From contig JAONGR010000001.1 of assembly GCA_028375605.1 (NCBI GenBank), positions 124,001 through 188,000 on the forward strand: 64,000 bases of DNA, given 5' to 3'. The notes beneath the pieces were generated by a model. It was not told the DNA's origin, made no database searches, and saw only the letters and a list, made by a program, of their open reading frames with translations. How positions within the stretch are numbered: position 1 is the stretch's first letter; every line of letters starts with the position of its first letter. Source of the stretch: Arcobacteraceae bacterium. GTDB lineage: Bacteria; Campylobacterota; Campylobacteria; Campylobacterales; Arcobacteraceae. Below are positions 58,297-62,993 of the stretch, in pieces. Both the position numbers and the translations under genes were made by a program.

Positions 58297-59104
58297 CTAA
58301 TTTATAACTGTTCCTAGATTCCAAATAGGTAACATTATCGCTAAAATAAGCCACAACACGACCAATGATATTATAAAGATAAGCATTGGCTCGATTGAAG
58401 AAGAAAAGTTCTTCAAGCTTTTATGAAATTGCTTTTTATATTGTATTGTAATATCTGATAAAATTGTTTCATAATTATTTGTATTATCAGCTGTATTGAG
58501 CAACTTCATTGTTAAATTATCAAATAAATTACTTCTTTCAAATGATTCTGATATTGAAATGCCATTTTTTATATCAAGAAGAACTCTTTCCATCATTTTT
58601 TGCACATATAAATTATTAACTATATTTTTACTATTACTTATCGCTACTTGAAATTGATATTTAGATTTAACAATAATCGATAAAGATAGAAATAGCCTAT
58701 AAAAATAATACGACTGTATCATTTTGCTAAACAATGGTATTTTTAATAATAAGCTCTTATCATACATATATCTATATTTTTGAATCAACATAGATACTAG
58801 TACCATAAAAAATACGACAGATAAAGAGAGCACTAACCAATATTTTTCAAACATCTCTTGCATCGTAATTAATAAATATGTTGAAAATGGTATATCATCT
58901 TTTAATAAATTCAAAATTAGGTAATACATATATAAAAATCATACCTATAGAAATACAAAGTGAAGCCAATAAAATAATAGGATACCTCATCACTTCATTC
59001 AGCTTAGTACTACTATTTATATCTTCTTCCAATATCTCAACAAGAGAATATATTGATTCTTTTATATTTCCATTTTCAAACCAAGCTAGAATAATACTAA
59101 AAAC
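58297..59104 (-). pseudogene. Truncated and frameshifted GspF/PilC-type secretion inner-membrane protein
   Basis: ORF 58297..58929 looks like a GspF C-terminal half. Immediately upstream in another frame the minus strand reads VFSIILAWFENGNIKESIYSLVEILEEDINSSTKLNEVMRYPIILLASLCISIGMIFIYVLPNFEFIKR*. The two frames meet at an A4 run (58900-58903), and the upstream frame is closed by TAA at 59105-59107. Confidence 0.8.
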
Positions 59105-59162: not shown

Positions 59163-60683
59163 TTATACATTAGATAAGCTTTCAATCCCATTATCAATAA
59201 ATTCATTATTATATTTATATAAAGGAGATTCTTTTGCTATATTAAATTTGGAAAATTTTGATGTTTGAACTTTATTGTTCCTAATTGAGAAAAAGAGATA
59301 ATCTTTCTTATTATGCAAAATATCTATATCCTTAGTACAAATAAGTCTATTTGTATAAGCCCCATTTTTAACAGTAATTACTTTATTACTATGCAGAAGT
59401 TCTTTTAAAAAATTCACTAGAAAATATTGATAAGTTCTTTGTTCGTCAAAACTAGGATGTGCACAAGTAAAATATTGAGCATTGACAATGTTCTTAATAT
59501 AATTTTTCTTAGTAAATTTTTCTGATTTTGCCATCGAAAAAACTTTTATATTTGCAGTATCATTACTTTCTTTAATTGCTCTAATAATCTCTTCTGTAGT
59601 TGCTCCGGTAGTAATAACATCATCAATTAATAGAATATTTTTATCATCATCAATATTTTCACAAGAATACGTTTTATATATAATTTCATTTCTTGCACTA
59701 TAGTTTAAGTTTTTTTGATGTGAGAACTTATCATGAGTTTTATTTTGTTTTAACAATACAGGTTTATATTCAGCACCAAGTCTACATGCGATAAAAAAAC
59801 AGATAACATCCATAGCCGATATAGAATTTTTATCATATTCAAGTTCATTTGAACCTAAAGATCTTACTACATAATCTATGTCACCAAAATTTGTCTTTAA
59901 ACTAATTTGTAATAGTGCCCTAATGATATTTACAATAGATTTTTGCTTATTATTTTTCAAGTCCTTAATTCTTTTATGCATTGCATCATAAGAAAATTTT
60001 GTTTTGCCAATATCGTCTGAATCATTTTCTACAGTATTTTTTTCATAATCTTCCTTTGCACTATGTATTAAATCTGGAATAGGTTTGTAACTATCCGTTA
60101 AATAGTAAGAAAGTGTTTTAAATTTACCAATATGCTCATTTTCAGTATCTATTAATGAGAATGATTCATTGTTAATTTGTTTCACTAATGAAAGAATTTC
60201 AGAATATGAATCCATAAAAACTAATTTACTTTCAAAACTATTGTATGCCTCGGATTCTGAAATAGTTAAAAACATAATATTTGATTCTTCACATGCTTTA
60301 TAATCTTTATATGAATCACCTACAAAAAGAATTTCATTTGAATCTAATGCATATTGTTTTTTTAATTCACAAAGTGCTCCCGTTTTTGAAGATGTATATT
60401 CTAAATAAAACTTTTTCAATTCTGCATAACCAAATAAGTCATTATAATTAATATCAAACTTCATTAGTACTTCCTTGGCATAATCAGTTCTTGATGTAGT
60501 CATAATAATTACATAAATATCATTCTCAATTAGTAAATCTATAGTCTCTTTCCCATTACCTATTTCAGTAAATTTATTAATATACTTCGGAAGTTCTTCC
60601 CATTTATTATTATCTCGAGATGTTTTAAAGATTCTAGTATCAACCAAAGTATCATCTAAGTCAAATACCACCATATTTATCAT
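59163..60683 (-). CDS. HAD-superfamily phosphatase + ComF-like phosphoribosyltransferase fusion
   Basis: HAD motifs VVFDLDDTLVDT, VIIMTTSR, LFVGDSYKDYKAC; PRPP-binding motif NILLIDDVITTGATTEEI preceded by ComF-like KPVLLKQNKTHDKFSHQKNLNYSARNE. Confidence 0.85.
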   Translation of the reverse strand: MINMVVFDLDDTLVDTRIFKTSRDNNKWEELPKYINKFTEIGNGKETIDLLIENDIYVIIMTTSRTDYAKEVLMKFDINYNDLFGYAELKKFYLEYTSSKTGALCELKKQYALDSNEILFVGDSYKDYKACEESNIMFLTISESEAYNSFESKLVFMDSYSEILSLVKQINNESFSLIDTENEHIGKFKTLSYYLTDSYKPIPDLIHSAKEDYEKNTVENDSDDIGKTKFSYDAMHKRIKDLKNNKQKSIVNIIRALLQISLKTNFGDIDYVVRSLGSNELEYDKNSISAMDVICFFIACRLGAEYKPVLLKQNKTHDKFSHQKNLNYSARNEIIYKTYSCENIDDDKNILLIDDVITTGATTEEIIRAIKESNDTANIKVFSMAKSEKFTKKNYIKNIVNAQYFTCAHPSFDEQRTYQYFLVNFLKELLHSNKVITVKNGAYTNRLICTKDIDILHNKKDYLFFSIRNNKVQTSKFSKFNIAKESPLYKYNNEFIDNGIESLSNV

Positions 60684-61663
60684 ATTAATTTCCTTATATT
60701 ATCTTGATTCAGTCTATATTCCTGAACAATTTCTTTTTCTTTTTCTTCTAGTAGAAGTAATACTTCATCGTAATTATGTTTACTGTATAATTTTGCTCTA
60801 CCTTCATTTGCCAAATATTTAGTTCCATTTATTTTGCTAAAACCATCCTCATAATTTAGTAAATTAAAATCAGGAACAAATAAATGTCTATTTTGTTCTA
60901 ATGTAAATTTGACTGTATGCATAGTTCCTCCTTTTATATCTGTTTCAATTACAAAAGTCCCTAAAGACATTCCACTTTGAAGTCTATCTCTATCAACAAA
61001 AGCACTTCTAAAAATATTCTTCCATGGGGCAATTTCACTAAAAAGTAATCCTTGATTATTCAATATGTTTTGTGCGAGTTCTCTGTTTTCTGCAGGATAA
61101 ATTTTTACTAAATCTGTTAAGATTGCAATTGTTTTACCATTAACATTTAATGCCCCTATGTGCCCTGCAGTATCAATACCTTTCGCAAGTCCACTCACTA
61201 TTGTATAATCATGTTGTGAAAAATATTCTGCTGTTTTAATTGCAACAGTTTTTCCTATATGAGAATTTTCTCTTGTTCCAACAACAGCAATATTTTTTTT
61301 ATTAGACAACAGTTTTATATTTCCTTTACAAAAAAGAAATAATGGAGGAATTTTTAATGATTTTAACTGTATAGGGTATTCTGTATCATAATACGAAATA
61401 ACAATAACATCTACTAATTCATTTTTGGATAATTCATACTTTATTAAATTGATATTCTTATTTAATTCTTCAATCAAATCATTATCAAATTTTCTATTTT
61501 TCTTTAAAAATTCTAGAAATAAAGTTAATTTAAAGTGATTATTATTGACATAATTAAATTCATCATATATTGATATTATTGTTTTATTACCAAAATTTTT
61601 TATACGATTAAGTGCTAATAATGTTATTGTTTTTATGCTAGGCAAAATTACTTTCCTCTTCAT
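60680..61663 (-). CDS. Divergent DprA-like (SLOG/Rossmann) protein
   Basis: NIAVVGTRENSHIGKTVAIKTAEYFSQHDYTIVSGLAKGIDTAGHIGAL...GKTIAILTDLVKIYPAENRELAQNI...GLLFSEI...FVDRDRLQSGMSLGTFVIETDIKGGTMHTVKFTLEQNRHLFVPD; ATGA overlap with downstream HAD-PRTase. Confidence 0.88.
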   Translation of the reverse strand: MKRKVILPSIKTITLLALNRIKNFGNKTIISIYDEFNYVNNNHFKLTLFLEFLKKNRKFDNDLIEELNKNINLIKYELSKNELVDVIVISYYDTEYPIQLKSLKIPPLFLFCKGNIKLLSNKKNIAVVGTRENSHIGKTVAIKTAEYFSQHDYTIVSGLAKGIDTAGHIGALNVNGKTIAILTDLVKIYPAENRELAQNILNNQGLLFSEIAPWKNIFRSAFVDRDRLQSGMSLGTFVIETDIKGGTMHTVKFTLEQNRHLFVPDFNLLNYEDGFSKINGTKYLANEGRAKLYSKHNYDEVLLLLEEKEKEIVQEYRLNQDNIRKLI

Positions 61664-62105: not shown

Positions 62106-62993
62106 TTAGTCGAAGTTATATCCCATTTCACTTAAAGATGCTTTGTTTTTAGTCCAGCCTTTTTTTACTGATACAAAAAGTTCTAGATACACTTTCTTTT
62201 GAGTAAGTCTTTCTATTTTCTTTCTAGCGTTGTACCCTATTCTTTTTATTGCAACTGCACCTTTACCTATAATCATACCTTTTTGAGTAGATTTTTCAAC
62301 AACAATAGTTGCTTTAATTACATCAACATTGTCTTTTTCTTCAACTCTATCAATTACAACATCTGCTTCATATGGTATCTCATCAGAAATATTATCAAAA
62401 ATTGATTCTCTAATAAATTCTCTGTAAATTTCTCTTAAATGTGAAGTTGTCATGATTTCTGTATCGTATAATGGTGGTGAGTCTGGAAGATGTTTTACTA
62501 TTGCATCTAAAATATCTTTTTCTTTAGTTCCTTTTTTAATAGAAACAGGAATTAAAGATTCATACTTATCATCAAACTCTTTATACTCTTCAATTTTATC
62601 AAAAACTTCCGCTTCTGTAACAAAATCTGTTTTTGTTAAAAGAAGGATATGTTTTGTATTTTTTTTATTTTTTGTTAAAAAATCTTCATAATGTTTAATT
62701 TTATCTGTCACAGGAGCCAAATATAGAATAAGGTCACAATCTCCAATAGCTTTAAGTGCTTCTTCAAGCATAAACTGATTTATTAACTTTTCATTCTCAT
62801 GAATACCGGGAGTATCTATAAATACTATTTGATCATCATCATTCATTACAATTACATTTGATCTTTTTCTTGTAGCATTCGCTTTATGAGAAACCATAGT
62901 AATTTTTTCTCCAACTAGCCAGTTTAGTAAAGAACTTTTACCTGCATTAGGTCTTCCCACTGTTGCAACGAATCCACATTTTGTATTTGTCAA
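62106..62993 (-). CDS. era: GTPase Era
   Basis: GFVATVGRPNAGKSSLLNWLVGEKITMVSHKANATRKR; DTPGIHENEKLINQ; KH-domain C-terminus. Confidence 0.95.
   Translation of the reverse strand: MTNTKCGFVATVGRPNAGKSSLLNWLVGEKITMVSHKANATRKRSNVIVMNDDDQIVFIDTPGIHENEKLINQFMLEEALKAIGDCDLILYLAPVTDKIKHYEDFLTKNKKNTKHILLLTKTDFVTEAEVFDKIEEYKEFDDKYESLIPVSIKKGTKEKDILDAIVKHLPDSPPLYDTEIMTTSHLREIYREFIRESIFDNISDEIPYEADVVIDRVEEKDNVDVIKATIVVEKSTQKGMIIGKGAVAIKRIGYNARKKIERLTQKKVYLELFVSVKKGWTKNKASLSEMGYNFD

Follow-up and report, generated by a model that had tools for sequence, protein, structure and literature searches.

Architecture of the gene pair

The window, by which we mean the whole analysed stretch of 64,000 nucleotides, carries two minus-strand genes that share an ATGA stop/start overlap (Table 1). 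Both open reading frames were confirmed where the preliminary description had placed them, and the two genes are probably co-translated. Promoter-like sites around the pair are not clearly beyond chance expectation, and no terminators were found around it.

The first gene, here called shosA-like, encodes a protein with a strong match to the Pfam family DNA_processg_A (5.5e-57). Its key loop is RDRLQSGMSLGTFVIETDIKGGTMHTV, exactly as quoted at the outset, and the Pfam search detects no C-terminal winged-helix domain, which agrees with the earlier impression that such a tail is lacking. The second gene, here called shosT-like, encodes a fusion of two domains. HAD-type Pfam families match its N-terminus (Acid_PPase, 4.3e-6, and Hydrolase, 1e-5), and phosphoribosyltransferase (PRTase) families match residues ~321-394 (2.5e-5 and 4.2e-5). 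The HAD motifs (DLDDT and VGDSYKD, the DxDDT/GDSxxD pattern noticed before) and the PRPP-binding loop LLIDDVITTGATT are indeed intact. In an alignment with three relatives, residues D8, D10, G122, D123, D127, D354, D355, T358, G360, and T362 are invariant. Neither Pfam nor PADLOC finds a helicase in this protein. A single-sequence structure prediction reached a mean pLDDT of only 33.6 and was set aside.

Table 1. Features of the gene pair and its flanks (window coordinates)
Feature	Position	Strand	Description
shosA-like gene	60680..61663	-	DprA-family (SLOG/Rossmann) protein, 327 aa, predicted antitoxin
shosT-like gene	59163..60683	-	HAD-phosphoribosyltransferase fusion, 506 aa, predicted toxin
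ATGA stop/start overlap of the shosA-like and shosT-like genes	60680..60683	-	
era GTPase gene, upstream flank	62106..62993	-	86% identical in G003, conserved in relatives
gspF remnant, downstream junction	58297..59077	-	Type II secretion/type IV pilus inner-membrane protein, from residue ~124, frameshift near 58903

The genomic location

The surroundings of the pair are best understood by comparison with other genomes of the genus. In G003 (99% complete), era is followed by two more genes, gspE, and an intact gspF, and G002 likewise has era, gspE, and gspF in colinear order. The order in the window is era, the shosA-like gene, the shosT-like gene, and a gspF of which just the rear part remains. 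Compared with G003, about 3 kb of an ancestral operon, covering three genes and the first third of gspF, seem to have given way to the pair. The remnant was recognized by tblastn with the intact G003 gene and by a T2SSF Pfam match, with a GspF model matching from position 200 only; its frameshift, taken alone, could be an assembly error. No gspE was found in the window's assembly, which is 62% complete.

No convincing terminal repeats surround the pair, and its GC content (19-27%, with 23-36% around it) leaves no clear foreign mark. With gspF cut short and frameshifted and gspE missing from the assembly, the secretion/pilus-type operon is broken in the window and intact in the relatives. Elsewhere in the window (about 6772-38222), the open reading frames read as a large, ordinary-looking flagellar cluster with flhA-, flhB-, fliI-, fliF-, fliG-, and flgE-like genes.

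Evidence for a ShosTA-type pair

The two adjacent genes match the PADLOC models for ShosA (7.7e-70) and ShosT (1.7e-6). The second match, to profile PDLC03962, is weak (26.1 bits) and confined to the PRTase part; ShosT proteins are highly divergent, with 20-27% identity. For the shosA-like protein, the structure entry 9vzo (“DprA-like antitoxin protein ShosA”) is matched at 5e-27, and a DprA entry (8zva) is equally good at 4.6e-27. Since the PADLOC ShosA model also matches the canonical DprA of a relative (177 bits), membership of the ShosTA family rests on the pairing itself, the loop, the neighbours, and the tree.

The loop and the neighbours go together. DprA-like proteins with an RDR[LIT]Q loop have a HAD and/or PRTase frame nearby in 17 of the 19 such loci retrieved, and no such neighbour was seen at 76 canonical genome-contig loci, at the one canonical phage-record locus (L055), or at 19 canonical loci of the window's order, where the flanks spanned only about 1.5 kb. 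Eight of the 17 linked loci (that of the window plus seven from plasmids or phages) had also been used to train the HAD and PRTase profiles, and a few of the 17 are near-copies, which leaves the other viral and genome loci as independent support. Because the RDR.Q loop tracks these neighbours, the loop that had looked merely divergent is, on sequence grounds, a signature of the ShosA-type family. The string is almost identical to RDRLQSGMSLGTFVIETDIKGGTMHTV in the DprA-like proteins of Sinorhizobium and Hymenobacter, and a few PRTase-linked proteins are without the exact loop (e.g., RNRIQA in a coliphage).

The two loop-positive exceptions lie on similar viral contigs (L176 and L177). Each encodes a DprA-like protein of the ShosA type (RDRIQA), about 505 aa long (L176:4725-6254 in the first), and has no PRTase or HAD neighbour. 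In L176 the gene directly follows an ORF that reads as SNF2-type helicase-like, which is perhaps a different effector.

A tree of 83 DprA-like proteins places the shosA-like protein as sister to proteins from Escherichia coli and Klebsiella plasmids (support 98/90), inside a group of 24 rows (99/92), 23 of which are PRTase- or HAD-linked. The canonical DprA proteins of the order to which the window belongs fall into a group of their own (100/100). One PRTase-linked row on a long branch (L178) falls outside the group of 24.

Taken together, we consider it very likely that the pair is a horizontally acquired toxin-antitoxin anti-phage system of the ShosTA type. The preliminary description had proposed a self-contained, non-housekeeping DprA/PRTase module, plausibly for defence and outside the canonical DprA lineage, and the tree, neighbours, and locus bear this out. 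Its label “uncharacterised” does not hold, nor does the statement that no function was known: DprA-like/PRTase pairs make up the ShosTA toxin-antitoxin family, whose relatives are PsyrTA/syrTA and RqlHI, and phage protection by such a pair has been published (PMC9122126). The pair is a new, divergent example of this already described family.

Related pairs on phages and plasmids

Pairs of this kind come in several arrangements. Pf phage PfAC02a carries a HAD-PRTase and a DprA-like gene, annotated as ShosT and ShosA in its record, and a Psychrobacter plasmid has a pair of the same architecture with a helicase-less HAD-PRTase. On the E. coli (L046) and Klebsiella (L047) plasmids, a DprA-like gene is followed by a HAD-PRTase gene with a 4-bp overlap, and the E. 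coli toxin runs on into DUF559 and DEAD-helicase regions. Residues 1-387 of the shosT-like protein align with these plasmid HAD-PRTases at 25% identity (E about 1e-26, in a small comparison). PRTase and HAD stand in reversed order within one protein on a Priestia plasmid, and PRTase, DprA, and HAD are three separate adjacent genes on plasmids of Segatella, Sinorhizobium, and Hymenobacter. At L051, L052, and L054 the three proteins are encoded by neighbouring but unfused genes in the order PRTase, DprA-like, HAD, and the Segatella locus (L051) has two more PRTase-like ORFs upstream.

HAD motif I is retained in many family members. The ShosT of the P2-like coliphage P2_4C9 (L048:1199-2473) is a near-perfect fit to a PADLOC ShosT model; it has lost the catalytic aspartates of the HAD, which most of the relatives examined keep, and reads FSIADVV in place of the motif. 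This uneven retention makes the role of the HAD domain testable. With the shosT-like protein as sole query, no related loci were found in the genome contigs and nothing at 1e-5 in the phage collection.

These relatives also bear on how the pair should be classed. One could assign it to PsyrTA/RqlHI and assume that the RecQ-type helicase part was lost, given that its nearest relatives in the tree are the E. coli and Klebsiella plasmid pairs, with the helicase regions in the E. coli toxin, and that PADLOC PsyrA matches the shosA-like protein at 3.8e-30. However, ShosA outscores PsyrA widely, the window's toxin shows neither a helicase match nor a PsyrT match at E up to 1, and the helicase-less HAD-PRTase is the form found in PfAC02a and Psychrobacter. 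We therefore regard this classification as unlikely.

Distribution and the canonical dprA and comF genes

A search of 299 genomes of the order returned no further full-length ShosT, and the HAD-PRTase is hence not the fixed core gene that the preliminary description had allowed for. The pair adds a divergent, chromosomal example of the ShosTA type to a lineage whose sampled genomes almost all lack one.

A rival reading takes the pair for the organism's competence DprA coupled to a ComF-like PRTase, and thus for a housekeeping transformation module. A single DprA domain was indeed detected in the window's assembly, and the PRTase of the shosT-like protein resembles ComF/GntX (about 1e-8). However, the assembly is only 62% complete, and all three genus relatives keep a DprA of the 260-aa type at another locus, judged to be canonical in two of the three. 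The gene adjoining the relatives' canonical dprA is also undetected in the window's assembly, which suggests that this segment is probably unassembled here. A separate comF candidate is present at G000:C54. Moreover, the shosA-like protein stays below the cut-off of the dprA equivalog model TIGR00732 (171.8 vs 191.15 bits) and outside the canonical clade of its order. The tree, the model cut-off, and synteny led us to reject a housekeeping competence pair, and we give the competence reading very little credence.

A metabolic or nucleotide-salvage pair without a tie to conflict, suggested by how common HAD and PRTase domains are in salvage enzymes, is scarcely credible in view of the sporadic distribution, the relatives on plasmids and phages, and the constant pairing with a DprA-like partner.

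Proposed mechanism

In E. coli, a pair of DprA and PRTase proteins confers protection from T7 and lambda, and homologues of DprA act as the antitoxins of shosTA, syrTA, and rqlHI (PMC9122126). A gene annotated “DprA” can thus be an antitoxin. The toxicity of RqlH maps to its PRTase domain, and mutants in the PRPP pocket lose most of it (PMC4670107). A further source (PMC12593503, citing Pu et al. 2025) relays reports that ShosT disturbs purine metabolism and causes DNA damage, that ShosA binds DNA, and that T7 Gp0.7 is a trigger of ShosTA.

By analogy with these members, we infer that the window's copy is active and works in a similar manner; toxicity, neutralization, and phage protection are carried over from the published systems. 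ShosT, the HAD-PRTase, would be the toxin, with its PRPP-binding PRTase domain acting on the nucleotide pool and so leading to DNA damage and a stop in growth. ShosA, the DprA-like protein, would be translated first from the shared mRNA and serve as the antitoxin, countering ShosT either via DNA binding and recombination or through physical contact with it. An infecting phage would then upset the balance between toxin and antitoxin and set off abortive infection.

The mechanism may differ in detail from that of the coliphage ShosT, given the degenerate HAD of the latter. Possibly, though we would not bet on it, the HAD domain is catalytically active in the window's branch and processes the PRTase product or the nucleotide pool, making a two-step toxin unlike the coliphage protein.

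Comparison with known systems

With the ShosTA pairs of PfAC02a and P2_4C9, the window's pair shares adjacent DprA-like and PRTase genes, a HAD domain N-terminal to the PRTase, an intact PRPP loop, and an accessory location, whereas sequence identity is low. The antitoxin gene precedes the toxin gene in the window and in P2_4C9, while the order is reversed in PfAC02a, and the HAD motifs are intact in the window's toxin but degenerate in that of P2_4C9.

The E. coli and Klebsiella plasmid pairs have the gene order and the 4-bp overlap in common with the window, and they provide the closest antitoxin in the tree and a toxin that is alignable over residues 1-387. The E. coli toxin is longer through its DUF559 and DEAD-helicase regions, whereas the window's toxin stops after a short C-terminal part of its own. 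PsyrTA and RqlHI likewise combine a DprA-like antitoxin with a PRTase-bearing toxin, but theirs includes a RecQ-type helicase and the window's does not. Finally, the canonical DprA and ComF of natural transformation share their folds with the pair, whereas canonical DprA has an RNRII-like loop (RNE.VV in the window's order), no HAD or PRTase neighbour, and a clade of its own.
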